A stretch of 64,000 nt of DNA from Echinarachnius parma (taxonomy: Eukaryota > Echinodermata > Echinoidea > Clypeasteroida > Echinarachniidae). The stretch covers positions 62,001 through 126,000 of the forward strand of contig JBAMJV010001832.1 of the NCBI GenBank assembly GCA_037951105.1. The letters are read 5' to 3'. The notes below the pieces were generated by a model that had not been told where the DNA came from, searched no databases, and saw nothing but the letters and a program-made list of their open reading frames with translations. Of this stretch, positions 3,811 to 62,490 are shown one piece after another. Within the stretch, counting starts at the first letter, position 1. Every line of letters starts with the position of its first letter. Both the position numbers and the translations under genes were made by a program.

Positions 3811-4155
3811 GATGTGGTATGGCAAGATTGGTAGAGCGCGCGCTGTCCAATGAGTGGGATCCCGTGTTCGAATCCAGTGTATCGTCCGTTGCGTTTGTCT
3901 TTCAGCAAGACAGTTAATCCACTGTTGCTGGTCTCTACCCAGGTGTATAAATGGGGACCCGGAAGGATGGGAATGTGGCTCCTGAGCACTATGTGCTCCT
4001 AACAAGCGACTGGCTGGAATACTCAATAGGGAGTGGAAAATGTGCACTTTGTTTGATTGAAGTGTGTATCCGTTGACCAGGGTAATAATAATAGTGCTAA
4101 ATATTAGAGGCTCATTGCAATTTGCGCTCGATAAATAAATATTATAATTATTATT
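3811..4155 (+). mobile_element. tRNA-related SINE-like repeat
   Basis: The head resembles a tRNA promoter: an A-box-like TGGTAGAGCGC near 3830, and a B-box-like GTTCGAATCC near 3871. A shared body follows (TCTCTACCCAGGTGTATAAA, then TGGGGACC), and the tail is rich in GCTC/ATAA and ends in AT repeats. Related bodies occur at 21793-22385 and 58918-59205, and a tail fragment at 32196-32315. This is the expected layout for a tRNA-derived SINE. No target duplication was resolved. Confidence 0.6.
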
Positions 4156-4596
4156 TTTTTAAATCACAGCATAAAGCCCAGGCTATTTCTGACCCTTACT
4201 AATTAAGGCTTCCTCCTTATTATCAAATGTTCCAATGTTGTTTGTTATTTCATCTCTTTGTCAACATGTAGACCTGTGACTTACAACAACTCTGAGACAG
4301 AGAACGTGACATGCATCTAGTATTCGTCGTTTGCCAAGGTATTGTAGACTGCAACTCAGCAGTGGTGAGAAGGAGTCCTAAACCAAGCTGCAAGTCTGCA
4401 CGGCATTATGATTATGATAGTCCAATTTTCCTGTCTCCTTCACATCTAAGATTATGAATGATGTCTATTAAAGATTAAAAGGGCGAAGGGCAATGTAGAA
4501 TCCAATGTGATTGTAACCCATTGTTGTAGAATGCCTTAGAGGATCTGTTCTCCAGAGCTGCTTTTTTTTTCTTGTCTCGTTGTCTTTAATGTACAG

Positions 4597-4680
4597 TTGA
4601 CCTACAATCGTTTCATTTTGGGACAGTAAGAGAGAAGGCACTCGAACAATATAATGTCCATCAAGGACTCAACTGCCAAA
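4597..4680 (+). pseudogene. Decayed copy of the GNE first-exon 5' end
   Basis: After an AG at 4595-4596, the sequence aligns with the start of the true exon at 4799 (TTGACCTACAATCGTTTC against GTGACTTACGATCGTTTC). Resemblance continues for about 75 bases with substitutions, and a TAA soon enters the frame. It is a local duplicate of the exon's acceptor side. Similarity was judged by eye. Confidence 0.5.
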
Positions 4681-4852
4681 ATAGACAGAGCTGCAACAAA
4701 TATGTAGAATCAAAGATGAAGCTGCATTAGCTTTATTAATTATTGTAGAACTTTGTCAACTAGTGTTTGTGTTTTTCATCTTCCTTTTGCTCCCATAGGT
4801 GACTTACGATCGTTTCGTATTGGGTCAGCAACAGAGATTGCACTCAGAGAAC

Positions 4853-5055: not shown

Positions 5056-8000
5056 GTAGGTCACACACAATGTGCAAATAACATGTTTGTAAAGTTGTTG
5101 TTCATGCTTATCTGCATTCAATCAAGTTACTGAAATCTCCTTTGCATTGATCTGTTATTATTTTCTGGGGCTATTTTGAACATTTGAAGGCTAAATCTTC
5201 CCTTGACTCCAATCGACCATTATGCAATGGGCCATTCTTGGTCACGTGTGTGACCCAAAATATGAATTTTTTAAAAATAGGCTGCTAATATTTCAGTAAG
5301 TATAGGAGGTATGATGATGTGAACATGACTTGCATATGTTGAAAGCTTTCAAGTGTAACACAAAAGATTTTATTAAGATTACGTTACCCAAGGACAAAGG
5401 TCAAATGGCATCGGTCACGTGTGTGACTTTGCGCGGGAGCATTTTTGAAGAAATTTTTAAAAACTCAAATTCACTTTGAAAATCCTGTGAGATATGAAAA
5501 GCTCAAATGTTCATATTAGTATCAGACAACAGATATATATCTGTAAGTAAGAAAATGGTACAAAAAATAAATAAACTCAAACAATTGTTTTTTAATGTAT
5601 GTTATTGTGTGGGGATGTCTGGGTCACGTGTGTGACATACTGTACAATGTGAATGGAAATGGGAATTTTACAAATATTAGGTTTAGATAGTAACATGAAG
5701 TTCAATTGTCACAAAGTTGGTATCAACATGTACAGGAGAGTAAGAGGAATGAGCTAGCTTAATTATTTTTGGAGTTATGCATTTTTAAAAAATATTGAAT
5801 TATGCAAATTTATGCAAATGAGTAATGCATTTTCAATATTTAAGTGTAAAACATATATTTGATAAAACCTTAGATATTGATCTTTCCAATAATGGAATAA
5901 AACAAGCTTTATTTTTTCCAAAAAAGTTTCACTTTTCAAAGAATGGCCCAATTTGAGACTTGGCAAAAAGAATCTGTCGGGCCAGTAAAAAACTCATATT
6001 TCCAATGTTTGGTGGCCCGATCGGGCTAGCAAATGTTGAAACTTTTGTGCAAAGAAATTATGGTGATTATTTGCAAATTTGATCCCTCACAGAAAACACT
6101 TGATTTGTGGATTAAAAAGAGAGGAAAGAGAGGTTGAAAATTAAAAGTTCTGATGAGAGCGCATTTTGTTTTCCGCCGACAAGAAAGTTGCAATGTCGAT
6201 GTCGCAAGCGCAAAGCTTAGCAGCACACTTTTCACATTCTGCCCCCCCCCCCCCCCATTATAATGTAACACACACTTTGGATAGGTAGAACGATGCTCGC
6301 AATTGTTTTGATTTTGCTGGTGGCCCGATCGGGCAAAAATGTAACAATTGCATACCTGCCAACCAGTCCGTTTTTGTCGTATTTAGTCCGATTTTTTACT
6401 CAAAAAAGGGTAAAAAGAGTAAAAAAATCGGACGAGTACGATTTTTAAGTCAGGGGAAAAAAAAAAAAAAAAAAAAAAAAAGTTTTTTTTTCTTTCTTTT
6501 TTGTCTTTCTTTTCAAAAAGTATATATACACACATACATATAGCTCATACATACATAAAGCTCATTAAGCCAAAATATTCATGATCTTTATCATTGAAGT
6601 ATTGCTCATTCAGTGTGGTCATATATGTTTAAAAATAAGGCTAAGAGAGCATCTAGAACCCTAGAGCTTGACCCCGGCCGCAAAGGACTTCGTGCTTCGC
6701 TCTCGCGATGCGCGCTTCGCTCACATAAGAGTAAGATTTTTCATTTTCAAATGTTGGCAGGTATGCAATTGTATAAATGATAGGAAATATCAAGAAAATA
6801 ATGGTTGTACTAGCGAATATATAAATTTAGGGAAATGGTGGTCGATTTGTAACAGTTTAATTTGTGTTGTTTTCCATTCTGTTTACCTCACACCCCTGTT
6901 ATGCAAATGGAGCATTCCAGTTATGAAATCTGAGACGGCAGTGTACATGTGAGCATAGAATGATGTCAAATTTGTATAATTAACAGTGAATTTTCGAACT
7001 TTCTACAGTTATGAATGTGCTATGAATTTTCTCCTTTTTTCTTTTGTTTTTCTTTGTTTTTTTCGGGCCAACAAAATTTGGTTTCGGGCCACCAATTGTG
7101 GAAAAATACTCATTTTACTTGCTTGATCAGGCCACCAGCAAAAAAAGTTCATTTTGAGCATTGCATTTTGTCATAAATGTGTACTTGTACAAGTCACTGG
7201 AAGAAAGTTTTATGTTGCCTATTAAAGAAATGTTTACACTCCATACATTGTACATGGCTCTTTGTTCATCATTCCTTGTAATAATACATAGCTCAACCTG
7301 GCGGCTGATTGAGAAGGATGGCATCACTATCGACAGCCGTCTGCATACCATCGTGAGAGGAGAGGATGAGGCCGCTATGGTGGAGTCAGTCGGCCTTGCT
7401 ATGGTCAAGCTGCCCGATGTCATGCTCCGCCTCCGCCCAGACGTTGTCGTTGTCCATGGCGACCGCTTCGACGTGCTGTCCCTGGCAGCTTGTGCGGCGC
7501 TCATGAACATCCGCATCGTTCACGTGGAGGGTGGGGAGGTGAGCGGGACCATTGACGACAGTATACGACACACCATCTCCAAGCTGGCGCACTACCACGT
7601 CTGCTGCACGGAGCGCGCACGCAAGCGCCTGCTCGCAATGTGTGAGGACAATGACCGCATCCTGCTCGCCGGCTGCCCGTCTTACGACATGCTGCTCAGT
7701 GCGCACACAGAGGACTGTGAGGTAAGTTCTGGGCAAAAATCATAGACCTGTGTTACTCCCTTTTTGCCAAAGCACATACCTATTCGACCAATTCAAGCTC
7801 AGATATGATTTAACAATGATATTTTCACATAATTGTTGAAATGCTACTATAACAGCACTCTTCTTACTGCTCTCTACTTTAAAAAAATTGTTTTTGCTTG
7901 TATGCTTAAAACAAAATGTATTCATTTAATTACTTCTCTCAAGCCATCGGCTTTCTGGGTAATTTGCTAGTCACATAATTATAAATGTTATTTGCTGTTT

Positions 8001-35508: not shown

Positions 35509-38500
35509 GGATTCCACCATAACCGCCATAAACAATCTCAGATATCAACAACGTTGCAGAGGGGCAAATACGTTTTAATTGGTATAACTTTAAGCCCACA
35601 TGTAACAAGGTATGTTATAATTTGGTTTTTGAAATACAATTAAATTTATGACTAGGAATAAGAATTTTTCAACTAGCTTTGATACCTCTAAGGGCAGCTC
35701 CGTGGTGAATCTCTTGGGGACGTCTTGCCTCTTCACCTGGCACATAACCTGATACAAAACAAAAATAAAACAATCATGTATTTTAAATTTTTTCCAATAA
35801 ATTTATTTCACCATAATAATAAGACATGATTAACTACTAATAAAAAAACAAAACAATACTGTACTATCATTTCGGTTGGAGCTGTGAAAAGCAATACTAT
35901 CTTGTAATCGGACATTTGAAGCAGAACAATTTCCAGTTGTAACCTGGCAATTTTCCTGGGCCCATATTCATAAAGCCTGCTAGCTTAGTTTCATGCCAAG
36001 TCTATTTTAGATGACGTGGCTAGGTTGCAAAAAAGTGTTAATTTGGTGGATACATAAGGCTAAACCAGATAACCCTAATGGGGGACAAGGAAACTGTTTA
36101 TTGCTCACTAAACCACATCATTTGAAATAGACTTGGCTTGGAACTAAGCTAGCTGGGTTTTATGAATATGGGGCCTGGTCCCTAAGTTTAAATATCCAAT
36201 GTATTTTAATTATTGTGCAAATATGATATGAAAACGAACTCCTAATAACAAAGTACTTTTACTGGTCCTAACAATGTAAAGAATTTGCTTGCAGTTGCAA
36301 TATCTCCATGTTTGTCATTTTGAAATATTTGTAAGTAATTGAAACTGCTGAAATATAAAGAAAATAAATGGAAATGTCTGATCTGTCGACCATAACTTCA
36401 ACAATATACGTTGATATGATATAAGCGAAATATAAGTTGACATGCATTGTAACAGTATTAAACCATGACAGCTTTACTTACTAACATTGTCCAAATCCAC
36501 AAGATTGGTTCTCATATACCTTGCATTTTGCAACTTAGAGGGAACCACAAGGCAAAGAACAACACATTATTATATGTTTTGGTACCGTTTTGTGATATCA
36601 AATAGATACCCAACATTTTGCAAAGGGTTGTGTAATTCATAAACAAAGCAATTAATTTCCATCACTTACGGAACCACTAATATTTCCTGATTCCATACGG
36701 GCCAACCATTTGCGAGTGCACCAATGCTATTCACGCGTACGTTTGTAGACAATAGATTCCCGGGCGATTCGTTAGCTCTGCACACATTAGTCTTCGCAAT
36801 TCAGACCGCATGAACGCATGCTTTAGAATGGTGATACGTTTTCCAATTTTTTTTTTTCTTTTCGGAAACATATTTTTGTGAACTTGTTGATCGAATGGAA
36901 TACTAAAGATGTTATGTTTCCTTTAATAAGAATATTATTTTTGGGTGGTGGTACCCTTTAATTCTACATACGGGAATGACAATGATAATACTTACTGTGA
37001 TGCGCTCCATCTGTGTGGAGAACGGGTGGAAAAGCTCGAAGAAGATGAGTCCCAGGGAGAAGATGTCCACTTTGTGGTCATAGTTCTGACCGGTTAGCTG
37101 CATGGAGGACAGGTGCAAACAAGGGAACAAAATTAAATGTTATATCAAAGCTCAGAAGTATAACTTGTGGGCCAGATGGGCAAGTCAACTTAAGATTTTT
37201 CTATTTCTAGTAGCCCGAAATCTGAACCTGGTGGTCCCAGCAAGCAGAGGAATATGAAACGTTTGGTTATATTTGGTTGCCCATTTGGGCCACATGGCAT
37301 TAAACATTCCGTGCACTCCAAAAATCGGGTAGCATGCAAAACTGGGGCTCTGCAGATATTCAGGGGCTAAATCCTCCTAAAACCCTTATATTTGTTCATT
37401 ATGTGCAATGCATAAAATAAGTACATGCAAGTTTATCTATATCAGTGGTTAGAATTTGTATTTTGTTATTGATATTGAGTCATATGTCGCAATGTGTTTT
37501 CAATGTGTACAGCCAAAAACTTTCAGAAAATAATTTGTGGGTCATTTGGTCATGTGATTTCCACTTTTCACTAGTCTACAAGCAGAACTTCAATAGTTTA
37601 AAACCATGGTTTACATAAACCACCTTTAGTGAATTCAAGCCTGAGGGTAGAAACATCCTGTTCATACCTGCTCCGGACTCATGTAGAGTTGGGTCCCCAC
37701 TTTCCCTGTGTGGAGCTGAAGTCCCCCAGATGTGTCGTCTTCATCCTCTGCATCTTCTATACCGGTGTCCATGGCCGTCACAAGACCAAAGTCTCCCACC
37801 TTCACCTTCCCGTCCAATGAGAAGAAAATGTTGGAAGGCTGGGGGGAGAATGAAAACGGGACCATCCGTTAGTTTTAGTGCAAATTTTGTTTGCAACCTA
37901 TTTATTAATCAACTTCTTCTTTATTATTATTATCATCATCATCATCATCATCGTCATTTCTTTCTATGTCATCATTATCATCACCATCATTGTCATTACC
38001 ACCACCACCACCACCACCATCATCATCATCAGCATCATAATTCACATACCTTGAGATCTCTGTGGATCATGCCACAGGCATGGATGTAGCTGCATGCCTC
38101 CAGGATCTGGTGGAAGATGTGCAGCACCTTGTTCCTGTCCCTGGACAGCGTGTTGGTGCTCAGCCAGTCCTTCAGCGTCTCCTTCTGGCACAGCTGCATC
38201 TGGATGTACAGGTAGATCCTGGGCACCTTGGCAACAGGAGGCCCTCTGCTCCTCCTTGACGTTGACGGCTGTAGGAGGTCATTATCAAGCGTAGAGTGAC
38301 TGTTCTTTGAGGACTCATTACAGAGCTTGGAGGAACTTTTCCTTGAGTTGGCACCGTCTCCCGTGTCATCCCCGTCATTGTTATTCTGCGTCCCACTATC
38401 TGTAGCTGCTTCCGAGGCATCCGAGTGTGTTGATGCTTCAGAGGTGTTGTCCGAATACCCCCGGCGATTGCTGCATCCCGAGTCGTCAAAGATAATCTGG

Positions 38501-41500
38501 AATGAATCGCTGTGATCTAGCTCTCTAATTTCTTTGGAATCAACATTGCCTTGGTAGTGCTGGAAGGGCAATTCAACGGGTGTGTTTCCAGTACTTGTGT
38601 CTGTGCTTCGAGAGGAAGCACTCTGTTTGACAAAGCTCCCATTCATTGGAGTCCTTTCACCGGAGTCGGATACTTTGCTCACGGAGCATATACTGTCATT
38701 TGCGCTCTCATCCGCACCCTGGAAATCGATGCTGAAAGAACTACTTTCATCAAGGTCACTGCCAAGTTCAAAGCCCCCGCTCAGGCTGTTCACAGCCCCT
38801 GGGAAGAGGATGTCTGATTCAACCCCCAAGCTCCTTCCATCACCCTTCTGGTTCACACCTCTCTTACCACTGCCCCCCTTGCCGCTTTCTTCAGTTTCCT
38901 CATCGCAATCCGTGAGGTCGAATCTGAGCACAGGGCTTCCTCGCTGCGGTCTATCCTTCATTTCAAGACCAAAGTCTGTGCTGGTACTAGTCTTGCCACC
39001 AGTCTGCTGGAGTAACTGTTCCCTGTTCCTTACTAGCTCACTGTTCTTGTTAAAGAAGGCTGGTGTGCCCACGGATGATAACAGGTCATTACTAGTGAGA
39101 CAGCAAAAGAAGAATAGAATACAACAAATTAATAAATGAGGATAGTGTAATTCTGCAGTCACAACACATTTAACATACACTTCTGAAAATCTTTTGTACA
39201 CTCCAAAGACAAACATGTTCAGGAATAGCCCGGAAACAATTGGGCTGTGGTCTAAAAAGAATGTTATTTAATGATATACTTAGTGAGTACTTTTTTCTTC
39301 AGAGTTGTCTTCTGTTTGGTTAGTATCCATATGAAAGTAAACTTATTATGGACTTCTAAATGAGAATAATTACCCTCAAAGTGTCGTAAAGGGCCCTACA
39401 AGAATTTTTCTCTGGGCCTTCTCTATTAAACAACACATAGTACGTCCACGACCTGTTCACACAAGTTTACATAACGCAACACAATATTCAACCATGAAAC
39501 TCACGATTCTCCGACGAGGTGCTTGTCCCTGGTGTCCTGCCAGCCCACAGGGGGCTCTTCCAGCCAGGAGTTGAAGTAGCGCACAATCCCAGAATGATCC
39601 AAGATGGCTAGAGTCCTAGCTTCTCTAAGTACCTTCTCTCTTGCCTCCTCCCTGTTTACAACAATGGTATATAATTTCATTTTAAATATGGTTTTGGGCA
39701 GGGGCTACTTTTCAAGCTTGCTTGCATGAAAATAACACTTGAAGATATTTGTTTTGCATTGAACTCTATGCAAATTTTCGAGGGCTGTTTTATGACTTTC
39801 GGGGGCTCTTTTGGGCATTTCCGGGGCGAATTCACCCCGAGCCACCGTGTATTTTTTTCACTGGTTTTGGGGTTGCTGTAGACTTTAAAAATAAGCCTCA
39901 AAGGCAAACTAATTGATTCTTTTTTAGTTGCAAATCCAATACCTGCTGCTACTATATCACACATTGGATGTTGGGATTTGTTAATACACACATGAGTGAA
40001 TACATGAAATACATTGTACAATCCAAATCAAATTCAATGTCAATTGCAGGTGTTGGCATAGATCTCTTTCTCTAGAGCTATGATTTCTCCCTTGCCGCTT
40101 TTATGAAGAAATGATAATGTTCACGAGTTGCACAGAATACTCATTTATTTGTTAGAATAGTTTATTGGCACTGAGGGCTTCATTCAAGCTAAGCGTTGAT
40201 GTACATGTAGAGCATCTCAAAACAATCAACGCTGCCCGGCAAGTGTCCTTGCCTATCTAAGTACTTTCTCTCTCGCCTGTTTCCTGTTTGGAATGGAAAA
40301 ATACATTCTAACAAATTATACAGACATCATTTTACTTTTAGTAACTTTATTCCCTAATTATAGAATACGTGCACTTGGACAAAAACATGGGAGAAAGGCA
40401 AATTCTGACATTTATATATATATATCTTTCAGTAACTTTATTCCCTAATCATAATATCAATATGTGCACTCGGACAAAAAAAATGGGATTATTTAAAAAT
40501 AAGGTAATACAAACAAAAAATTGCATAAAGATATACTGACCTATTTGGTAGCGTTATCCTCTTGACCGCATAGCTGTTCTCATCAATCTTATTCTTGGCT
40601 TGGAACACAATCCCAAAACCTCCCTTTCCAAGGCACTCCATATGGTCAAAATCACTATGAAATCTGTCATCAAAAAAGGAAAATCATTTAAAAAATCTAT
40701 CTACTGACCAGAAATATAATGAAAAAAGAACAAAGAAAATGAGGCTTCCCCAGGATTCCAACTCTAGCTGGGATTCCTAGACCGTTGCTCTTACTCTCTG
40801 ACCTCAAACGATCCTGTGACGGTTTAAACCCCTTAAGTTTTTAATGCTCGTTTTGTTCAGAAGCTAATACAGACCTGCATGTGACAAAGTATAAACAATA
40901 CACCATCTCTGAAAATGAGGTCATAGTGCAATCTTGTTTTTACATAGCATACTTGCTTCAAACAAGGTGAATGTGAGGAAAATAAAAGTTTTAAAATATC
41001 AGATCTGAAGTAGTCTGGTATAGGAAGTTTAATCTGGATCTAGGTACTGCTGATTAATGTCTAGGTCACAAATGCTCCGATTTGGGATACGGCGCCTGTA
41101 CGATGCCACTTTTTGGTGAAATCTTGCGGGAATCTTGCGGTGGCTATCTTACGATGTTTAACTTGCCGGAAGCCTGTAGACACGGCGTAAAGAGCATCGC
41201 ACGGGCACCGCACGGGCACCGTAGCCTTTTTTCCGAATATTGTACAATTTGTTTTGACTGAATTTGGGGCCACTCAAATCGTACGATATCGTAAGAGTAT
41301 CTTACGATGACCGTATGAGTCCCGTAAGGCGTCCGTATGAGGGCTTAGATCGTAAGTACAGGAGCCGTGCGATTTAAATTTGTTTGCACTACCAAAGTCA
41401 TCGTACGGGCCCCGGCAAATATACACAAAGATATCACAGACATTGTACGATATCCCAACTCCACGAAATCGTAGAAAATCCGCTGTAAGTAAAAAAAATT

Positions 41501-44500
41501 GTGCTGCGCGCGGAGCATTTGTGACCTAGGCATCCCACTTTAATACGTATTATTGGACTGGTCGTGAAAATAAGAGGTAATGAATGTTTACCTTGATTTA
41601 TACTCTGCAGAAGAGGAGGTCTTCTGAGGAGTGTTATCTGCATCTACATTATTTATCTCCTCAGTCGCACTCTCATCTCCTACATTCTGCTTCTTCTCCC
41701 TTTCCATGAGACGCCGTTGTCTCTTGGGTTTCAGGACGCAGTAGAAGAACATCTGCATTCCTATCGCTATCAAGATACTAGTGCTCATAATCTCTCTCCT
41801 GTAGATCAAAATATGAAATTAAATTAAATATTGATAAACTATACACCAGGAAAATGAAGATATTATTGAGGAGCTACTTTTAATTTGATTCTCCCTTTCC
41901 AAGAGAAGCTTCTGTCTCTTGGGTTTCAAGACACAGTAGAAGAAGAACTGCATTCCTATGGCTATCAAGATACTAGTGCTCAGAATCTCTCTCCTGTAGA
42001 CCAAAATCTGAAACAAAATTAGACTAGATGGATCTTCGACTGCGTGCAGTCGAAAATTATGCCTCCGCTATCACGCGATTTTAATATCAAGCCCAAATTA
42101 ACATGCGATTTATTAAAAAATATATTTTTCATATATTTTGAATCCTGTGACCTTGACCATATGACCCCAAGCTTTGATGGCTACATTGGCTTCCTAAGAA
42201 ACATTCAGGTACCAAGTTTGATTGAAATCTAACATTTAGTTCTCAAGTGAGATTTTGCCATTACAAGCTTTTTTGCATGTATAATGAGTCATGTGACCTT
42301 GACCTCAACCTCATGACCCCAAATGTTATGGCTATGTTGACTCTTTATGATACATTCAGGTACCAAGTTTGATTGAAATCTGACATTCAGTTCTTGAAAT
42401 GTTGCCATTACAAGCCATTTTCGCATATATATATTGAGTCCTGTGACCTTGACCTTTGACCTCATGTTCCCCAAAAACTAATCAGATCATTGCCACCCTG
42501 ATATGTACACTCACACCATGTTTGAAAGTGATCCGTCAACTGGTTCATGAGATATCGCGAGAACAAAGCATTTTTGCACATATATTGAGTCCTGTGACCT
42601 TGACCTTTGACCTCATAAACCCCAAAATCTAATCAGATCATTGCCACCCCAATATGTACGCTCATACCAAGTTTTAAATTGATCCGTCAACCGGTTCTTG
42701 AGATATCGCGGGAACGAGGCATTTTTGCATATATATTGAGTCCTGTGACCTTGACCTTTGAACTCATGACCCCTAAAATCTAATCAGATCATTGTCACCC
42801 CAATATGTACACTCGTACCAAGTTTGAAATTGATCCGTCAACCGGTTCTTGAGATATCGCGAGAACGAAAACGGGACGTACGTACGGACGGACGGACAAC
42901 CCGAAAACATAATGCCTCCGGCCACTTCGTTGGCGGAGGCATAAAAATATCATTGTAGATAAAGAATGATAAACTATAAAACGGGAAAAAAATATTATTG
43001 AGGAGCGACTGTTTTCCATGTGAAGCCTTCGTCACATTTTCCACTCCCTGTGTGACTATACTTCTATAATGACTACAAATAAATACTCACCACCAAGTCC
43101 AGACAGAAGTGCTAAATAGGATCTCCAGACCAGCATCCTCGCTCTCGTTGGTCTCTGTGACCCCCCTCCGTCCAGGCGTCTTCCATTCTCTCGGCGATAG
43201 GTCCTGGAGTAGGTAGTACCCATTATCTGAAATCGTTTTGAATTACAAGAATTGAATTGAACTGGGCCCTGAAGCAGTAACCATTTACCATTGATTTACG
43301 ATCAATTGATTGTGCAATTAATCATACATTTTTAGCTCACCTGAGCCAAAGGCTCAAGTGAGCTATTGTGATCGCTTTTCGTCCGTCGTCCGTCGTCCGT
43401 CGTGCGTCGTGCGTCGTCCGTCGTCCGTCGTCCGTAAACTTTTTACATTTTCATCTTCTTCTCCAGAACCAATGATCGGATTCCAACCAAACTTGGCAGG
43501 AATCATATTTAGGGGTAGAGGAACCAAAGTTGCTAAAATGGTGGGCGTGGCCCCCAGGGGGGCCCTGGGGGAGGGCACCAAATGTAAAAAATATGTAAAT
43601 TTTAAACATCTTCTTCTCAAGATCCAGAAGTATGACAGACCTGATATTTCATATTTAGATGCCTCTATTGATGAAGAATGAAAGTTGTTCACAAGATTTT
43701 TGTGGGTGGTCCCATAAGGGCCCTGTGGGCGTAACAGTTTTTTGGGGGGCCCTACGATAGGAAATATACATTTTCATCTTCTTCTCCAGAATCAATGATT
43801 AGATTCCAACCAAACATGGCAGGAATCATCTTTAGGGGTAGAGGAACCAAAGTTGCTAAAATGGTGGGCGTGGCCCCCAGGGGGGCCCTGGAGGAGGGCA
43901 CCAAGTGTAAAAAATATGTAAATTTTAAACATCTTCTTCTGAAGATCCAGAAGTATGACAGACCTGATATTTCATATGTAGATGCCTCTATTGATGAAGA
44001 ATGAAAGTTGTTCACAAGATTTTTGTGGGTGGCCCCACAAGGGCCCTGTGGGCGTAACAGTTTTTTTTGGGGCCCTACCATAGGAAATATACATTTTCAT
44101 CTTCTTCTCCAGAACCAATGATTAGATTCCAACCAAACATGGCAGGAATCATCCTTAGGAGTAGAGGAATCGAAGTTGCTAAAATGGTGGGCGTGGCCCT
44201 CAGGGGGGCCCTGGGGGAGGGCACCAAGTGTAAAAAATATGTTAATTTTAAATATCTTCTTCTCAAGATCCAGAAGTATGACAGGCCATCGCAGAATGGC
44301 CCCATAGGGTCCCTATGTGAGTGGGGTTAATATGCTGAAGTGGTCAGTGGCTGGTGAAATGTGTTAAGCTTTGTCTTATATGTGTGTCTGTCTTTTTTTA
44401 TGATTCACCCAAACATTATGGTAAATCATAATGTTAGGTACAGGGGATCAAAAGTTATTGATTAAATAGTACATCACATTATAGATTTTGGCATGATTTC

Positions 44501-47500
44501 AACTGATTTCATATCTTCTGAGGGTGCCAGAGAGAACATGCGCCAGATGTGAATTGATTGACCTCAGGTGAGCGTCGTGCCCCCCTGGGGCTCTTGTTAT
44601 ACTAAGGGCCCTAAATTTAAATTGATTTGCAGACATTCAAAATGATTGTACACTAAAATGTTCAACTATTCAATTTGTTACCCAGTGTTTTTAAAGTCAA
44701 GTAATTCAGGTTTATCAAAGTTTGTTATATTTCATGATTTAACTTTGATTTATACAGACTACAAATCAGACTTAGACAGGACTTTAAACAACTGTTTACT
44801 TAAACAGCATTTCAGCATACCGGCCATAATGTCTTCAAATATTATATTTAGATTTTGTTTTACTGAAGTAAAAGTCTTAAAAACGATTTTAATACAAGCT
44901 CTCGGCATAGAAAAATGCTAAAACTAGATGGATCTTCGACTGCGCGCAGTCGAAAATGATGCCTCCGCCATTACGCAATTGATTTATGTCAAGCCCAAAT
45001 CAACATGTACGCAGAATTAATTCTGTCAACTCAATTTTGATGGTACTCTGTCTTTTAGATCTTGACGTATCACAATTATGAGCTATAAGTGACCTTGACC
45101 TTGACCCCAAAATCTAATGACTACAATTGTTCCCTATTATACATTCAGGTATCAAGTTGGATTGAAATCTGATATTCAGTTCTTGAGATTTCCAATCTCA
45201 AGCTACTTTTACATATAATGAGCTCTGTGACCTTTGACCTTTGACCTCATGACCCCAAAATCTAATCAGATCATTGGCCCCCCCAAGATACATACATGTA
45301 CCAAGTTTGGTCAGAATCAGTCAATCCGTTCTTGAGATAACGCGATCACGAGCTATTTTTGCATATATAATGAGCTCTGTGACCTTTGACCTTTGACCTC
45401 ATGACCCCAAAATCTAATCAGATCATCGGCCCCCCAAGATACATACATGTACCAAGTTTGGTCAGAATCTGTCAATCCCTTCTTGAGATAACGCGATCAC
45501 GAGCTATTTTTGCATATATAATGAGCTCTGTGACCTTTGACCTTTGACCTCATGACCCCAAAATCTAATCAGATCATTGGCCCCCCAAGATACATTCATG
45601 TACCAAGTTTGGTCAGAATCTGTCAATCCGTTCTTGAGATAACGCGATCACGAGCTATTTTTGCATATATAATGAGCTCTGTGACCTTTGACCTTTGACC
45701 TCATGACCCCAAAATCTAATCAGATCATTGGCCCCCCAAGATACATACATGACCCAAGTTTGGTGAAAATCCGTTAATCGGTTCTTGAGATAACGCGATC
45801 ACGAGAACGGGACGTACGTACGTACGGACGTACGTACGTACGTACGGACGTACGTACGGACGGACGGACAACCCGAAAACATAATGCCTCCGGCTACTTC
45901 GTTGCGGAGGCATAAAAATGTCTTGCTTTATCTAAGTATTAAATTGAATACCAGCCCAAGGCCTCTATGAACAAATATTTGTTGCGGCAACTGTTGCGCA
46001 AGTGAATAGGATATTTCCTTGCTCCACAGCAAAATGCACTTGTCCAAAGTTTTCAGATATTGATGCTATGAAGCTTTTAATATTCATGCATACTAATAAA
46101 TCACAATTTCACACTTGAAATGGGTAAAGCATAAAATTTAAAATAAAACAAAATGTTCATTCAAAATCTGAAGTAAATGCATTATTCTTGACAAGGCAAC
46201 AAAAAATTGCATTCGAGCAAGTTCAATTAATTTTCAATATAAAATACAAATCTGTGATCTACATTGAAAAAAATCCCTACCAAATGGATACTGGTTCCAG
46301 ACGGACACCTGGCTAGTCTGTTGTCTACCCCTCTCCCTCTCGCTGGCCTCCAGATTCTCCTCATTCTGTCTTGTCACCAACGAGGGCGTCCTAGAGACCG
46401 AGGTGTAGGCGTATGGTCTCCATTGCACCCTAGGGGCCATCAAACTTCCGTCGTGGGCACCTGCTTGCCCCCTCTGGGCTGCCCATGCAGCCACGGCAAC
46501 TTCTGCCTGCGTGCTCTCAGACGGATGGACGTAGAGTTGGTCTTTGTGGCTACCTGTAAATGTTCCCAAAATGAAATAAAAGTATAGTAGAACCACGTTA
46601 TAATGAGTACCTCAGGACCATGACAATTACCTTGTTATCAGATATCACGTTATATCACAGTAAAAAACAAAAACAACAACATAAAGAGCTTGGACACCAA
46701 ATATTACCTTTATAACAATATATACAGGTTTTGTTACAGACCTCTTTAATACCGTGGTTCAACTGTACATGAAATCATTTTATGCCATATAGTCTCTATG
46801 CCACACTACATTCAGGGGCAAAGTCTGATAGCATGGGTTAACCCTAAAGTCAAAATTTCTTTTAAAAGCAAAACCTGAATTTGATGGGTGTGAAGAATAC
46901 AAACACACATACGCACAATAATGAACACATATTTAAAGAGACGCATTAAGCGTTATGTTGCTTACCTACATACAGCATGGGGTTGGCATGATCGGAGAAG
47001 AAGGGAGTCATCAGAGGCGTGTCATCTGAGGTCATGTCAAGGGTCACAGGGGCAAAGAGGTCAACCCTGCTCATGACCCCGTTCCGGATCGTCCATGCAT
47101 TCGCAATGCTACTCTCCAACTGTTATATAATGCATCATAAAACATTTGTTTGATGTATATTCCGTTCAAAGAAGACCAGTGTATAACTCATGACTCTTGA
47201 CAAACTTAAAAATTACAACTGTTCATGACCTGCTTTATCCAGCACCCTCCGATTGGGTGTATAGGTTCATCATGCACTAATGCACTCCAAGTACATGTGT
47301 ACATGACACCTTAAAAACAAATTTATGCTCTCTTGAAGCTAAATGTAAATCCTGCGAAATGTACAGTTCAAACAATGTCTCGATTGAATACATGAGTTAT
47401 TTATCACTAATAAATGATGGCAAAAATGTCAAAGAATAATCATAACAAGAACCAGAGCTTTATTCTCTGAGTGCCAAATTAAATGGCAAATATCCACTTG

Positions 47501-50500: not shown

Positions 50501-53500
50501 ATACTCATTACTGTTCGTTTTATCTTAGATACTTGTATAAACGACAGTACCTCTATTATTCCACTTGAACAGACATCATTTAACAATTGAATGCAGATAC
50601 CCAGGACTAAGAATTCTAGTAGGCCAGCCCTACAAACTATGATCAAGTTATTACTTTTCAATGCAACCATTATTTTTACTAGAATAGAAATTCTGGTTAA
50701 GAATATCACTCTTTATATATTTCTTTATTGTATGCACTCATAATGTAATTTTGTTCAAATTAGAGTAATGTTGATGCATACATTACAAAAAAGACACACA
50801 GTGGCAGAGCTAAGAGAGCCCTGCCTCCAATAATTTGGAAAAAACAATAAAAATACATTTATAAGGGTAATATTTTTGAGAAAAAAACCCCAAAGAAAAG
50901 AAGAAAAAAAAGGTGTGACCCCCCCCCCCCCCCCCCAATCAGTCCGACCACTGGGGATATACAATGAAATTAAAATTGACAATCACCTCGAATTGGCTGA
51001 TGGACGAGGAGAGCAGGGGCCCGATGCCAGCATCCATGGTCCACTGCTGCTGTCCGGCATTCTGGATGTCCAAGGCTACAATCCGGCCGTCAATCGTACT
51101 CAGGAGCAGCAGGGGTCTAACAAGGTCAACAAAATACAAAATGTATATATATTCCCTAAATTGATTTCTTATCATTTGGGTTTGTGTCAGGTTTACTTTA
51201 TAATAACTTCTGACAATCACAAACACTGAAAGGGGTTTCAGGGACGAACAACTGTCAGATGGACTTTCTAACTCAGCCAGCAGCTAGAGCACTGGTCTAG
51301 CAATCCGGAGGTTGCGGTTCAAATCCAGAGAAACCCTATTTTCTTTGGTAAATATATTACTCATTGCGGATATAGTATCAAAAATAATATCGCTAGTGAT
51401 ATTCATTCGTCTCGCAATGTATGGACAACAAGGAATCTAAACAACACTTTGTCACTTTTATTTATAAATATTTCTGGTCAGTTTCCCTCTGTTTGAAATA
51501 AGTTCAACAAATTGTAACGTTTGTCCCACTGACTTTGTTCTGGCTGTTAACAGAAATAACTGCACATTGGCAATGCAAACATAGTTAAAGGGTACCACCA
51601 CCCAAAAATAATATTCTTATTAAAGAAAGGTAACATCTTTAGTATTCCATTCCATCAACAAGTTCAGAAAAATATATAATTGGAAACGCATCACCATTCT
51701 AAAGCATGCGTTCATGCGGTCTGAATTACGCAAACTGCTATGTGTGCGGTGAATTGCAATGTGTGCAGAGCGAACGAATCGCCCGGGAATCTATTGTTTA
51801 GAAACGTGCGTGTGAATAGCATTGGCGCACTCGCAAATGGTTGGCCAGTATGGAACCAGGAAACAGCAGTGGTTCCGTAAGTGGTGGAAATTAATTGCTT
51901 TGTTTATGAATTACACAACCCTTTGCAAAATGTTGGGTATCTATTTGATAGATCACAAAACGGTACAAAAACATATAATAATGTGTTGTTCTTTGCCTGG
52001 TGGTCCCCTTTAACCAATGGGCTAAAATAACAAATTAAATCTAATACCTTAGTCAGTGTTTGCACACTGAATTTGATCTAGCTGAGGGACAAAATTAAAA
52101 TCTATTTCTGGGGGGCTACTTTTCAAGCTCGCCTGCATGGAAATAGCACTCTAAAATTGGTTTTGCATTGAACCCTGGATGCAAATTTACAGACCTGCTC
52201 TTTTATGATTTTATGGAGTGCTCTTTGTGGAATTTTGGGGGCTAAATCAACCTGAGCCATTGGGTATTTATTTCACTGATTGTGATATTCAGGAAGCTTA
52301 CAACTTACCAATATGGGCTTTAAATCAACATATTTTCTATTCATCAAAATTCAAGATATTCATTTAAAGTGTTAAACATTTAATTCAACTAATTCAGAAC
52401 TAGTAGTAGTATGAAAGTGTATTACTTCACGCACAAAAATGTCAGATTTTTTTCAAAGTGGCTAATTAGGATCAACAAAATTACAGTAATTAAACTAGCA
52501 TTCTGAGGATTTGATGTATCTAAAACAATGTGATTTGTGATTTTGTTTTCGCCATGAAATACAACTCGCTATTACGGGACAATTACGATCGCAGTCTGCA
52601 GATAAGGTATGGCATCATTTTCATCTTCATAATTTGAAGTTTATTCTTTACAAATTTTGTGTTTTTTACTAAGATAGTTTTTCAGATATCGATTGTTAAA
52701 GTTAAGGGGGGGCCATATTTGGACACCGCATCATAGTGGATGGAGCACATGAAATTCAAATTGGCGAGTTGAATTAGCAATTTAAATGAATATCTCAAAT
52801 TAAATATAAAATATAAATAAAACATATCGAAATGGATGGAATTTAAATCAGCATTGTTTCATAAACCATACTTAATGCATTCAGCTAGTCCAGCAGGACT
52901 AAAGGTAGAGACATTTACATTAACATTTGGACTTTTTCTTTAACATGCCATACCTTTAGTCCTGCAACACAGTAGAAGTGAGCCGTATCCCGGCACTTAG
53001 CCACCCTAAAAACCCTCAAATTTGGTTGGAAATATTTCAGCTACTCACCTGAATGTTCACGACTAGGCAGATGTCAACTTGCTTTCTCCAATGGTGCTGT
53101 CCTAAATACGATTTCAATTTTATAATCTGGTAAAATGAGCACTTTTCCGAGGTAAAACCAGCCCGACGTACGATGTCCAGCAAATCCCGTTACGTGTTAT
53201 TCATCACAGTTGCACGTGTAGTATTGTATTCGCCTGTATAGACATTTGCATAAGACGCATAACACGCAATCACGTGACTCTATAGAATTTTCTATAGAGT
53301 CACGTGTCATATGACAGGAAGACTGGTAATCATATTATCTAAAACACCCGCAAGGACCGTTGTCCTTTCCAGATTATTAACTTTCGAGATGTATTTGATA
53401 ATATGATTACCAGTCTTCCTGTCATATGACACGTGACTCTATAGAAAATTCTATAGAGTCACGTGATTGCTTGTTATGCGTCTTATGCAAATGTCTATAC

Positions 53501-54600
53501 AGGCGAATACAATACTACACGTGCAACTGTGATGAATAACACGTAACTGGATTTGCTGGACATCGTACGTCGGGCTGGTTTTAGCTCGGAAAAGTGCTCA
53601 TTTTACCAGATTATAAAATTAAAATCGTATTTAGGACAGCACCATTGGAGAAAGCAAGTTGACATCTGCCTAGTCGTGAACATTCAGGTGAGTAGCTGAA
53701 ATATTTCCAACCAAATTTGAGGGTTTTTAGGGTGGCTAAGTGCCGGGATACGGCTCACTTCTACTGTGTTGCAGGACTTAAGGTATGGCATGTTAAAGAA
53801 AAAGTCCAAATGTTAATGTAAATGTCTCTACCTTTAGTCCTGCTGGACTAGCATTCAGCCATACGTGCTGTTTCACAACAATGTACTACATGCGCCAGTT
53901 CTTGTGACATTTGAAAGTGGGTCATTTTGTCTTTAATCTGTGCTCATTCAGCCATTAACATTAAGTGATGAATATCTCTGATTTTCACATTAAATGTTCT
54001 TAACTGTAAGTCTGTAGAAATAGTGATGAAATTGCAGCTTGACTTGAGACAAATATCAGTTATTAAGCATTTGTTTAGGGGGGTATAGTTCTTTTTGTGT
54101 TCGGTTTAGCTGATAATTTAATTAGTCATATGATTAATCAAAAAGCTAAAAAGCTTACCTAAAAAATATAATAATAATAACAGTCATGTCAATGACAAAT
54201 CAAATGTGAGTGAATTTTTGAAAATTGAATAAGGTTCATAAATGAGATTGAGAAGGTAAGAATAAGATAACTAGATCTCTAGTCATACGTTCTTATTTTT
54301 GAAAATGATAATCAATTATAATCTTGAGTCATACCTATCAACGCCATGTGAATGCGAGGCTGAACAACTTTCTGGAACGAGTGGCAGAAACTGTTTTGCA
54401 CTTTGACTTTCTCCGTCATTCAAATCAAAAACACTGCCTGGCTGAGGCCTAGTCGAGGCGCTATTGGCAGTCTCGCCCGAAGTTCCGGGGTTCCCCTCCG
54501 CTGACGCTTCGATGTTGCGAAACTGGCTGATCAAGACAATGCATGTCAGAATCGAGCAGATCCTTCTCAGAATTGCTCTATCTTGCAGGGCATCCATCAA
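33983..54600 (-). CDS. EIF2AK3: EIF2AK3/PERK: ER-stress eIF2alpha kinase (whole gene, 16 coding exons)
   Basis: A type I ER membrane protein. Its luminal domain senses unfolded protein, and its cytosolic kinase phosphorylates eIF2alpha to reduce translation. Exons, 5' to 3' on the minus strand: 54600-54335, 51116-50987, 50197-50000, 48778-48654, 47893-47668, 47119-46966, 46553-46281, 43226-43091, 41798-41592, 40663-40541, 39651-39505, 39091-38050, 37838-37668, 37097-36996, 35748-35686, 34156-33983. All phases agree and give 1178 aa (human 1116). The order is: signal peptide (residues about 10-28), luminal beta-propeller ([33 protein letters not shown]), TM about 505-522, Gly loop GKGGFG (584-589), Lys606, acidic Ser-rich kinase insert (about 662-947), HRDLK (1005-1009), DFG (1025-1027) and YMSPEQ. 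Catalytic residues are intact. The C-terminal tail is shorter than in human. Confidence 0.96.
34522..34680. mobile_element. Palindromic MITE, copy 2
   Basis: The ends (CATAAAACTTTTCCAATTGT and ACAATTGGAAAAGTTTTATG) are perfect inverted repeats. The middle also folds (GGCAACAGC and GCTGTTGCC). It is in PERK intron 15. The decayed relative is at 14212-14357. Confidence 0.85.
34758..35331. mobile_element. 'TTGCCAAC' MITE relative with GTCCCG words
   Basis: The ends GCATACTTGCCAAC and GTTGGCAAGTATGT are inverted repeats, like those at 6344-6772. The 5' part has GTCCCG words and a complementary CGGGAC. The middle (34920-35170) is nearly identical to 12110-12345. Confidence 0.8.
35475..35508. repeat. 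Poly(G) run
   Basis: The longest G homopolymer in the window, about 33 bases, in PERK intron 15. In the PERK transcript it would read as poly(C). Confidence 0.8.
35686..35748 (-). CDS. EIF2AK3: PERK exon 15
   Basis: A 63-base exon encoding [20 protein letters not shown] then E, corresponding to the RTLTDVRNLKFPPLF part of the human C-lobe. Phase 0 at both ends. Confidence 0.9.
35958..36175. mobile_element. MITE with CCATATTCATGAAAGCC ends, copy 2
   Basis: The left end, GGGCCCATATTCATAAAGCC, and the right end, GGGTTTTATGAATATGGGGC, are inverted. The inside shares AAGTCTATTTTAGATGACGT with copy 1 at 26716-26959. Confidence 0.85.
36537..36962. mobile_element. TTAA-ended MITE family, copy 1
   Basis: The right end reads GGTGGTGGTACCCTTTAA; the left end is worn (AGGGAACCACAAGGCAAAG). 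The body (ACAACACATTATTATATGTT, CCCAACATTTTGCAAAG, CGGGCGATTCGTTAGCTCTG) is shared with 62087-62490 and, inverted, with 51584-52013. The TTAA ends suggest a piggyBac-type origin, which is inference. Confidence 0.75.
36996..37097 (-). CDS. EIF2AK3: PERK exon 14
   Basis: It encodes [20 protein letters not shown] then TQMERIT, almost identical to human [25 protein letters not shown]. This is kinase subdomain IX, with the conserved Asp. Phase 0 at both ends. Confidence 0.96.
37668..37838 (-). CDS. EIF2AK3: PERK exon 13 (DFG and activation loop)
   Basis: It encodes [20 protein letters not shown] and an acidic activation segment, then [14 protein letters not shown]. The Mg-binding Asp of DFG is present, and the Thr of KVGTQLY matches the phosphorylated activation-loop Thr of human PERK (QVGTKLY). 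Confidence 0.96.
37921..38040. repeat. Imperfect ATT/CAT/CAC trinucleotide microsatellite
   Basis: Runs of ATT, then ATC, then ACC and ATC triplets end about 10 bases from the exon 12 donor. In the PERK transcript they read as GAT/GGT repeats right after the 5' splice site. Confidence 0.85.
38050..39091 (-). CDS. EIF2AK3: PERK exon 12 (kinase insert to catalytic loop)
   Basis: A long exon of 347 codons. The first about 285 residues are the low-complexity kinase insert: acidic and Ser-rich, with [13 protein letters not shown] and [12 protein letters not shown], the latter like human IVFEDSGCDN. Then [20 protein letters not shown] matches human [17 protein letters not shown], and the exon ends at HRDLK. 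Confidence 0.95.
39505..39651 (-). CDS. EIF2AK3: PERK exon 11 (alpha-C helix)
   Basis: It encodes [20 protein letters not shown] then [15 protein letters not shown], matching human [26 protein letters not shown]. The Glu in the alpha-C position is conserved (LREA). Confidence 0.94.
39693..39870 (+). repeat. Dispersed GGGGCTACTTTT repeat, copy 2
   Basis: Ordered matches with copies at 1755, 52100 and 58640: GGGGCTACTTTTCAAGC, TTTTGCATTGAACTCTATGC, GGGGCGAATTCACCCCGAGC, CCGTGTATTT and TTTTTCACTGG. Confidence 0.65.
40232..40290 (-). pseudogene. Copy of the PERK exon 11 5' end
   Basis: On the minus strand, after an AG, the sequence reads in the same phase as exon 11: [10 protein letters not shown], then a stop where Glu stood. 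Changes within the matching codons are mainly synonymous (GCA/GCG, AAG/AAA). It lies in the intron upstream of the real exon. Confidence 0.65.
40541..40663 (-). CDS. EIF2AK3: PERK exon 10 (Gly loop and catalytic Lys)
   Basis: It encodes [20 protein letters not shown] then [14 protein letters not shown], against human [31 protein letters not shown]. The ATP-binding Gly loop and Lys are intact. Confidence 0.96.
41592..41798 (-). CDS. EIF2AK3: PERK exon 9 (transmembrane segment)
   Basis: It completes WWREI from exon 8 and encodes [20 protein letters not shown], a single membrane span followed by a basic stop-transfer [12 protein letters not shown] and a Ser/Thr-rich juxtamembrane stretch. Human has HWWKEIVATILFCIIATTF here. 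The donor GTAAAC begins at 41591. Confidence 0.92.
41874..42010 (-). pseudogene. Duplicate PERK transmembrane exon
   Basis: On the minus strand, after CTACAG, it reads in the same phase as exon 9: [20 protein letters not shown] then [15 protein letters not shown], against [20 protein letters not shown]. The match stops after the basic stretch, no donor is evident, and the frame runs on to a stop. It could be a decaying tandem exon or a source of a membrane-anchored, kinase-less isoform. Confidence 0.8.
42026..42948. mobile_element. Tandem-unit transposon 'TTCGACTGC', copy 1
   Basis: It begins with a small palindrome, TTCGACTGCGTGCAGTCGAA, then ATGCCTCCGC. It ends with ACGTACGGACGGACGGACAA and a hairpin CCTCCGGCCACTTCGTTGGC plus GGAGGCAT. 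Inside are about three units of roughly 150 bp, each with TGACCTTGACCTTTGACCT and CTTGAGATATCGCG. A second copy is at 44924-45917. It has no transposase frame and lies inside the PERK intron between exons 8 and 9. Confidence 0.85.
43091..43226 (-). CDS. EIF2AK3: PERK exon 8 (juxtamembrane luminal)
   Basis: It encodes [20 protein letters not shown] and [12 protein letters not shown]. It corresponds to the human YDNGYYLPYY...LHWW region just before the membrane span. Confidence 0.88.
43334..44598. mobile_element. 'AGCTCACCTGAGC' element with 323-bp tandem units
   Basis: It starts with a near-perfect hairpin (AGCTCACCTGAGCC and GGCTCAAGTGAGCT around AAA), then a (CGTCCGT)n tract (43379-43436). 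It ends at CCTCAGGTGAGCGTCGTGCC then CCCCTGGGGCTCTTGTT. Inside are 2.6 units of about 323 bp beginning at 43445, 43768 and 44091, each with an open frame containing QPN.AGII and KVAKMVGVA. The repeated frame is a property of the repeat and I do not call it a gene. Confidence 0.8.
44924..45917. mobile_element. Tandem-unit transposon 'TTCGACTGC', copy 2
   Basis: The same ends as 42026-42948, with a perfect palindrome TTCGACTGCGCGCAGTCGAA at the left. It contains four near-identical units of about 151 bp from about 45190. Each has TGACCTTTGACCTTTGACCT (45228, 45380, 45531, 45682). A (ACGTACGG)n tract lies at about 45810-45870. It is in PERK intron 7. Confidence 0.88.
45228..45701. promoter_or_regulatory. 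Array of triple DR1 nuclear-receptor half-sites
   Basis: Four copies of TGACCTTTGACCTTTGACCT, the reverse complement of three AGGTCA half-sites each spaced by one base. DR1 is the established motif for RXR, HNF4 and COUP-TF receptors. The array comes with the transposon units. Function is untested. Confidence 0.6.
46281..46553 (-). CDS. EIF2AK3: PERK exon 7
   Basis: It encodes [20 protein letters not shown], a variable stretch, then [20 protein letters not shown], matching human IKWKPLIHSPSRTPVLVGS. It ends NQYPFG before DNGYY. Confidence 0.92.
46966..47119 (-). CDS. EIF2AK3: PERK exon 6
   Basis: It encodes [20 protein letters not shown] then LFAPVTL and ends NPMLYVG. Human has [21 protein letters not shown] and VYLGMY at these points of the luminal domain. 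Confidence 0.9.
47524..47545. repeat. Poly(C) run
   Basis: A C homopolymer of about 22 in PERK intron 5. Around it, a 'GAGTGCCAAATTAAATGGCA' palindromic phrase is seen. Confidence 0.8.
47668..47893 (-). CDS. EIF2AK3: PERK exon 5
   Basis: It encodes [20 protein letters not shown], a strongly acidic segment (about 25 residues, mostly Asp/Glu), then [20 protein letters not shown]. Human has KWNFSVGHFE, then an acidic stretch, then ADWKVMAFSKKGGHLEW. The donor is GTTAGA, slightly off consensus. Confidence 0.92.
48654..48778 (-). CDS. EIF2AK3: PERK exon 4
   Basis: It encodes [20 protein letters not shown] then [20 protein letters not shown], matching human YICSALGCRQW...[22 protein letters not shown] in the luminal beta-propeller. 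Confidence 0.93.
49393..49471 (-). pseudogene. Copy of the PERK exon 3 3' end and donor
   Basis: On the minus strand it reads [20 protein letters not shown] then TGE in the same phase as exon 3 ([20 protein letters not shown]), followed by GTATTAAAT like the true donor. It lies about 600 bases downstream of the original in transcript direction. Confidence 0.8.
49510..49523. repeat. Poly(C) run
   Basis: A C run of about 14 near the exon 3 copy in PERK intron 3. Confidence 0.7.
50000..50197 (-). CDS. EIF2AK3: PERK exon 3
   Basis: It encodes [40 protein letters not shown] and [12 protein letters not shown]. Human has IIPSLDGALFQWD, TVPFTVESLLESSYKFGDD and VLVGGKSLTTYG. These are blades of the luminal domain. 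Phase 0 at both ends. Confidence 0.95.
50919..50937. repeat. Poly(C) run
   Basis: A C run of about 19, some 50 bases from the exon 2 donor of PERK. In the transcript it reads as poly(G) in early intron 2. Confidence 0.8.
50987..51116 (-). CDS. EIF2AK3: PERK exon 2
   Basis: It encodes [20 protein letters not shown] then [20 protein letters not shown], matching human LVIISTLDGRIAALD and [21 protein letters not shown]. It completes an Arg codon from exon 1 and ends in phase 0. Confidence 0.96.
51265..51335 (+). repeat. tRNA-like sequence (probable SINE head or tRNA pseudogene)
   Basis: TAACTCAGCCAGCAGCTAGA followed by GCACTGG resembles a tRNA D-arm/A box, and GGTTGCGGTTCAAATCC resembles a T-arm/B box. 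The acceptor stem does not pair and no CCA-adjacent pairing is seen, so this is not called as a working tRNA. Confidence 0.5.
51584..52013. mobile_element. TTAA-ended MITE family, copy 2 (inverted)
   Basis: The termini TTAAAGGGTACCACC and GGTGGTCCCCTTTAA are inverted repeats with TTAA at both edges. The body matches 36537-36962 and 62087-62490 in reverse (CATGCGTTCATGCGGTCTGA, GATTCGCCCGGG in reverse). Confidence 0.85.
52100..52285 (+). repeat. Dispersed GGGGCTACTTTT repeat, copy 3
   Basis: A well-preserved copy: GGGGCTACTTTTCAAGCTCG, CCTGCATGGAAATAGCACT, TTTTGCATTGAACCC, GGGGGCTAAATCAACCTGAG, CCATTGGGTATTTATTTCAC. Confidence 0.7.
52877..53859. mobile_element. Foldback element: two 454-bp inverted arms, 57-bp spacer, 9-bp target duplication
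   Basis: The element is 52886-53850. The left arm, 52886-53339, begins TAGTCCAGCAGGACTAAAGG, and the right arm, 53397-53850, is its reverse complement. Both arms are 454 bases and I count about five differences (near 52971, 53112, 53150, 53191 and 53267 on the left arm). GCATTCAGC flanks both edges exactly (52877-52885 and 53851-53859), as expected of a target site duplication. Each arm holds its own palindrome, CACGTGACTCTATAGAA and its complement around two bases. There is no protein. It lies in PERK intron 1, between exons 1 and 2. A 9-bp duplication fits Mutator-like elements; sea-urchin TU foldbacks are another comparison. Class is inference. Confidence 0.93.
54335..54600 (-). CDS. EIF2AK3: PERK exon 1 (start codon and signal peptide)
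   Basis: It starts with two Met codons, then a basic N-region and hydrophobic core ([14 protein letters not shown]), a typical signal peptide for ER entry. A Ser/Thr/Gly-rich luminal leader with [20 protein letters not shown] follows. ATG at 54598-54600 is chosen as the first of the pair. The donor GTATGA follows at 54334. Confidence 0.85.
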
Positions 54601-62086: not shown

Positions 62087-62490
62087 TTAAAGGGGACCAC
62101 CAGGCAAAGAACAACACATTATTATATGTTTATAGATACCCAACATTTTGCAAAGGGTTGTGTAATTCATAAACAAAGCAATTAATTTCCACCACTTACG
62201 GAACCACTACTATTTACTGGTTCCGTACGGGCCAAACATTTGCGAGTGCGTCAATGCTATTCACGCATACGTTTGAAGACAATATAATCCCGGGCGATTC
62301 GTTTGCTCTGCACACATTAGTCTTCACAATTCAGACCGCATGAACGCATGCTTTAGAATTGTGATGCGTTTTCCAATTATATATTTTTTTTCTGGAAACA
62401 TATTTTTGTGATCTTGTTGATGGAATGGAATACTAAAGATGTTACCTTTCTTTAATAAGAATATTATTTTTGGATGGTGGTACCCTTTAA
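62087..62490. mobile_element. TTAA-ended MITE family, copy 3
   Basis: The termini TTAAAGGGGACCACC and GGTGGTACCCTTTAA are inverted repeats with TTAA edges. The body is close to 36537-36962, including CCCGGGCGATTCGTTTGCTC and GCATGAACGCATGCTTTAG in the matching order. Confidence 0.85.

Follow-up and report, generated by a model that had tools for sequence, protein, structure and literature searches.

We found that a 965-bp near-perfect inverted repeat in the 64,000-nt stretch of Echinarachnius parma DNA that we analysed (the window) is probably a non-autonomous foldback DNA transposon, that is, one with long terminal inverted repeats, which belongs to a recently amplified family and is moved by a Mutator-like (MULE) transposase. 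The element itself has no recognisable gene; we infer both the MULE transposase and movement in trans, in which the element would most likely be cut and pasted by an enzyme encoded elsewhere and each insertion would produce a 9-bp, sometimes an 8-bp, target duplication. The copy in the window lies in the predicted first intron of the gene for PERK.

Structure of the element in the window

By aligning the arms to each other, we found that the inverted repeat occupies positions 52886-53850, with two arms of 461 bp that differ at 7 mismatches and a 43-bp spacer between them (Table 1). The element opens with the imperfect palindrome TAGTCCAGCAGGACTA and closes with the reverse complement of the same sequence, and an exact GCATTCAGC abuts each end as a 9-bp target site duplication. 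The initial annotation of this DNA had described a foldback with a 9-bp duplication, which the aligned arms and the exact GCATTCAGC on both sides bear out. It had drawn the arms somewhat narrower, at 454 bp with about five mismatches and a 57-bp spacer, in agreement with the 5 mismatches that we count in the first 453 nt of each arm, and the 17-2-17 palindrome with CACGTG that it had placed in each arm was located in both.

Table 1. Positions of the element and of the predicted gene parts around it, in window coordinates.
Feature	Positions	Strand	Basis
Predicted PERK intron 1, containing the element	51117-54334	-	donor and acceptor in matching phase
Left 9-bp target site duplication, GCATTCAGC	52877-52885	.	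identical to 53851-53859
Left arm, 461 bp, starting at imperfect palindrome TAGTCCAGCAGGACTA	52886-53346	+	7 mismatches against reverse complement of 53390-53850
Subterminal 15-bp inverted repeat in left arm (GCAGGACTAAAGGTA / TACCTTTAGTCCTGC)	52893-52965	.	inverted-repeat search
Left-arm 17-2-17 palindrome, CACGTG at each end	53271-53306	.	inverted-repeat search
Unpaired spacer, 43 bp	53347-53389	.	arm alignment
Right arm, 461 bp, bearing five arm substitutions private to the window copy	53390-53850	-	arm and family alignments
Right-arm 17-2-17 palindrome, CACGTG at each end	53430-53465	.	inverted-repeat search
Right 9-bp target site duplication, GCATTCAGC	53851-53859	.	identical to the left one
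Predicted PERK exon 1, coding part, signal-peptide-like; donor GT at 54334-54333	54335-54597	-	prediction

When we folded the PERK-sense strand of the element as RNA, the energy was -861.3 kcal/mol, as compared to a mean of -234.7 kcal/mol for shuffled sequences (n = 20; z = -73). There are 15 other inverted repeats in the window with arms of at least 60 nt, and the longest of these with arms less than 1 kb apart has 101-nt arms that are 73% alike. Because the fold energy is so extreme and the other inverted repeats with arms less than 1 kb apart are far shorter, a chance origin of the foldback is excluded. Within 52886-53850, Tandem Repeats Finder reported no tandem array, and there is no open frame of at least 110 codons, the length at which we looked for a transposase of the element's own.

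Copies in the host genome and their classification

To find other copies, we used one 454-bp arm as the query against the host genome (1.2 Gb in 14,790 contigs) and scored the best 40 of 397 first-look candidates, which gave 119 matching stretches. Counted by hand, 72 of these are arm-type matches of at least 81 nt in 40 contigs, and the remaining 47 are the 36-nt palindrome matched again. Because only the best candidates were scored, the family is probably larger than counted, and the likeness among the examined copies overstates that of the family as a whole. We fetched 39 loci for comparison and found that they form two subfamilies, A, which includes the window copy, and B, which has termini TAGTCCAAGAAGACTA. 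The arms of A and B are about 83% alike over 370 bp (61 substitutions, or about one site in six of the shared arm); the centres of the two have no similarity, and both lie within the shared arm ending GCATAACAC.

Among the 34 two-ended copies, the window copy counted, 29 are flanked by exact 9-bp duplications and four (L011, L012, L032 and L045) by exact 8-bp duplications, while one, L039, has no duplication flush with its ends. Copies with 9-bp duplications are what the initial annotation had proposed to search for with the 454-bp arm. Two pairs of loci, L019/L022 and L026/L027, each represent one insertion site present in two contigs, and when each pair is counted once there are 32 sites, 27 of them with 9 bp. 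Outside the count of 34 are L009, L013, L029, L033, L034, L035 and L041, in which two clear ends are missing, and the wrong pairings L036c and L044b. In the flank of L034 we found a paralogue of the L014 target that is 92% alike, uninterrupted and has a single CCGTCCCTC, which makes it a paralogous empty site. Taken together, the exact duplications and this empty site establish insertion with target duplication.

These data also bear on whether the assembler simply duplicated one arm in inverted orientation. The assembly is fragmented (14,790 contigs), and the structure was judged from the assembly alone; however, many copies lie in different contigs, each with both arms, different flanks and its own exact duplication, and one of them (L014) has the paralogous empty site, so that we regard an artefact as extremely improbable.

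Several of the fetched loci have features of their own. L026 and L027 share the duplication GCATGCTAT and have flanks that are 98-99.8% alike, but one of the two is 617 bp long and the other 1,712 bp; they are set apart by an arm deletion and an insertion and may be two haplotypes. In L011 (1388-2283) and L017 (1626-2520), about 70 bp of one outer end is missing, and the duplications are 8 and 9 bp, respectively. Because these copies have duplications despite the lost end, one side may be able to do without its outermost sequence, or that sequence may have been lost after insertion. In the flanks of L019/L022, we found that the element is nested in a larger inverted-repeat structure, pieces of which recur around L043. 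We also considered flipping of the spacer inside the element and dropped it, since insertion in either orientation combined with near-identical arms mimics a flip.

The window element consists almost entirely of two near-identical arms, duplications of 8 or 9 bp flank 33 of the 34 two-ended copies, and matches are spread over 40 contigs, as expected of a foldback transposon. MULE terminal inverted repeats are often longer than 100 bp, and some groups lack them. The present family combines long terminal inverted repeats with duplications of 9 bp (29/34) or 8 bp (4/34). MULE duplications are described as 8-11 bp and typically 9 bp (PMC6446971), and the active MULE Muta1 is described as having 8/9-bp duplications and a palindromic terminal motif (PMC5225508). 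We favour a MULE-type element because the 8-9-bp duplications, the long arms and the palindromic terminal motif occur together here as in Muta1. The Mutator-like kinship that had been proposed from the first 9-bp duplication thus gains from the 29 copies that have one and falls short of proof: a Mutator-like superfamily is likely given the duplication length and the end structure, but a superfamily cannot be proved from duplication length alone, and the foldback form arises in other superfamilies.

It is unlikely that the same foldback transposon instead depends on an enzyme from outside the MULE superfamily, such as a P/Galileo-like, hAT or Merlin transposase or one of a kind yet undescribed. 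In favour of this, the element ends have no linked transposase, the foldback form is convergent, Galileo being described as a member of the P superfamily (PMC3573991), and four of the 34 copies have 8-bp duplications. Against this, 29 of the 34 have 9-bp duplications, mixtures of 8 and 9 bp are described for the MULE Muta1 (PMC5225508), the duplications of Tm1 are described as 8-10 bp and most commonly 9 (PMC3169594), and those of Galileo are given as 7-bp (PMC3573991).

TU elements of sea urchins have short tandem repeats in the outer arm and 8-bp duplications. The initial annotation had suggested a TU-type element, and the overall foldback shape is shared; however, Tandem Repeats Finder reported no tandem array in the window element, and the duplications of the present family are mostly 9-bp (29/34, as compared to 4/34 of 8 bp), so that neither of these TU traits fits and TU kinship is highly improbable.

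Among described systems, a MULE-type foldback family of this kind compares best with Tm1 or with the derivatives of Muta1. Tm1 (Mutator/Foldback, from Meloidogyne) resembles the present family, by its description in PMC3169594, in its long foldback inverted repeats and mostly 9-bp duplications, in having both MITE-like and longer copies, and in the likeness of the two arms of one element (93.15% on average in Tm1). Tm1 differs in that its repeats are composite and vary in length and that some of its members have a Phantom-like transposase (PMC3169594); the arms of the present family resemble each other more closely than those of Tm1 and have no linked transposase. Muta1 and its non-autonomous derivatives (Aedes aegypti) resemble the present family, as PMC5225508 describes them, in their 8/9-bp duplications, palindromic terminal motif and virtually identical copies, and the derivatives in having common ends and various interiors; the authors class Muta1 as a type 2 Foldback element, but with arms of 145 bp that contain 12-bp tandem repeats (PMC5225508), whereas the arms here are about 461 bp and lack tandem repeats. 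Tetris (Drosophila virilis) is likewise described as a non-autonomous foldback with 8-10-bp duplications for which no transposase was found and whose Mutator assignment comes from duplication length; it differs in its arms, which reach 1,735 bp and contain tandem repeats (PMC4079207). Galileo, by its description in PMC3573991, resembles the present family in long arms proposed to exchange sequence, in chimeric copies and in recruitment of interior sequence into the arms, and differs in its superfamily (P) and its 7-bp duplications. The traits given for Rehavkus are a PHD-finger transposase and a minisatellite that precedes the 3' end (PMC6446971). The window copy has no minisatellite, which a deletion derivative could have lost, and the longer relative L039 has a tandem array in its interior; we recognised no transposase in the longer copies examined. 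In the literature covered (titles, abstract openings and partial texts, without Repbase), we found no description of this family, and we do not claim that it is unpublished.

Five copies (L030, L031, L036, L038 and L047) are longer, with common ends and 9-bp duplications around varied interiors. The initial annotation had proposed looking for an autonomous relative with a transposase. MULE domains do occur in the host genome, with 24 PF10551 matches over the cut-off, in keeping with a MULE-type family; among the listed open frames of these five longer copies and L039, we recognised no transposase. A Pfam scan of ten frames from L031, L036, L038, L039 and L047 also returned no transposase; its only matches were to a DEAD helicase in L036 (E = 0.013, below the cut-off) and to KaiA in L039 (weak, E = 0.1), the latter being taken as chance. 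L030, with 4,811 bp between its 9-bp duplications, was among the longer copies in which we looked for an autonomous partner; by eye, its 2.6-kb insert is a nested unrelated element, which starts with GGGCAATTCCA, ends with TGGAATTGCCC and has ATAA repeated on both sides. The interiors of L036 and L047 share about 25 nt immediately inward of the arm (88%) and, in opposite orientation, a stretch of 93-123 nt at 73-76%. Both loci (L036 at 5194-6940 and L047 at 3891-4740) are subfamily B copies with some interior sequence in common.

Age of the copies and likeness of the arms

To estimate how much the copies have diverged, we aligned 19 A copies and counted private substitutions in 18 of them, leaving aside six diagnostic positions and indels. 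L009 was dropped because its middle is misaligned and its orientation could not be set from the spacer; the 18 counted include both L019 and L022, which are one site, and three shortened copies (L011, L013 and L017). We found 18 private substitutions over the 18 copies, which is about 0.1%, or about one per kilobase. There are none in 8 of the 18 copies, and the window copy has the most, with 6. The examined copies are thus very young, in a search that favoured close copies. The recent activity that the initial annotation had read from the alikeness of the arms is therefore supported for the examined members of the family, while the window copy itself is the oldest-looking of the 18 counted because it has the most private substitutions. 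With so few private mutations (about one per kilobase), living individuals are expected to differ in the insertions that they carry.

The window arms are set apart by five substitutions found in no other counted copy, all of them in the right arm, an excess with a two-sided coin-toss probability of about 0.06. This is the largest number of arm substitutions among the 15 full A copies, although three others instead have 12-16 gap positions; other copies retain one to three arm mismatches.

We then asked whether changes in one arm are mirrored in the other. At the A diagnostic sites 297, 301 and 309, which read ACG or CAA, the arms are concordant with the mirror sites 669, 665 and 657 in 13 of the 15 full copies (L019 and L022, which are one site, are both counted, and the window right arm was typed from the family alignment). 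Of the two discordant copies, L015 combines the two arm types, one in each arm, and L012 departs from concordance at a single site. In L016, we found the private change G254T together with its mirror image C712A (window-element coordinates), and this copy has zero arm mismatches. Over 410 nt, the two arms of the subfamily B consensus (8 copies) show 2 mismatches and a single internal gap of 1 nt, despite the mere 83% or so of likeness between A and B arms; the arms of single B copies differ by 0 to 9 substitutions (11 pairs).

An independent mirror-image hit such as that in L016 is very unlikely, so parts of one arm have been copied into the other. We infer that such copying, by gene conversion or hairpin-templated repair, causes the mirrored changes, and the data suggest that it acted in L016 or in the source of L016. 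The ongoing gene conversion between arms that had been proposed as the other reading of their alikeness is supported to this extent, as arm-to-arm copying within the family, by L016, the diagnostic sites and the B consensus. A strong, constant copying process is disfavoured, since five arm mismatches persist unrepaired in the window copy and one to three in others. Candidate mechanisms are gene conversion, repair after excision and recombination between copies. For Galileo, the authors propose that long arms attract recombination and conversion (PMC3573991).

A more speculative idea, which we hold only tentatively, is that the arms are rewritten from each other during excision repair or transposition, by hairpin-templated synthesis, and that this keeps the elements perfect snap-back DNA. 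If so, mutations would spread to both arms of a copy or vanish from it, subfamilies would evolve as single-arm sequences, and L016, L012, L015 and the near-perfect consensus arms of A and B would be snapshots of the process. Copies that are nearly identical, pair almost along their full length and have mirrored changes allow arm homogenisation to be tested directly.

The host gene and possible consequences

On the minus strand, the frame of exon 2, at 50942-51283, resembles luminal-domain chains of eIF2AK3 (E = 4e-10), and a further frame of the gene, at 38038-39267, resembles the kinase domain of EIF2AK3 (E = 7.7e-16), which identifies the host gene as PERK. We predicted exon 1 and the splice sites from the sequence. 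By eye, the last two bases of the predicted exon 1, AG, combine with the A at 51116 to encode arginine, an in-frame join to the AG acceptor before 51116. Together with the two matches, this join supports the initial placement of the element inside PERK intron 1.

The simplest reading is that the element is a passenger in the intron; most likely it is near-neutral and would be spliced out. While present, it would add a long hairpin to the PERK pre-mRNA, since the transcript can fold back on itself. An intronic hairpin that is processed to siRNA or edited, and so alters the PERK transcript, would be a regulatory role. The 965-nt hairpin (-861 kcal/mol) would be transcribed if intron 1 is. According to PMC9989829, 86% of the editing sites of S. 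purpuratus lie in repeats, and across animals editing mainly targets young ones, which makes editing of such hairpins in the host animal plausible. However, there is no sign of selection for arm pairing in the window copy, which has the most arm substitutions of the 15 full copies, and we consider a regulatory role very unlikely. The insertion in PERK provides a natural allele with a long intronic hairpin, in which any effects on editing, siRNA and splicing could be measured.

Other repeats occur around the same gene. Within the PERK gene span, window positions 42201-45805 contain tandem arrays with 151-bp and 323-bp units. Positions 51585-52013, 36535-36859 and 62132-62490 have mutual dispersed inverted matches of 61-196 nt that are 84-97% alike, and these represent another repeat family around PERK.
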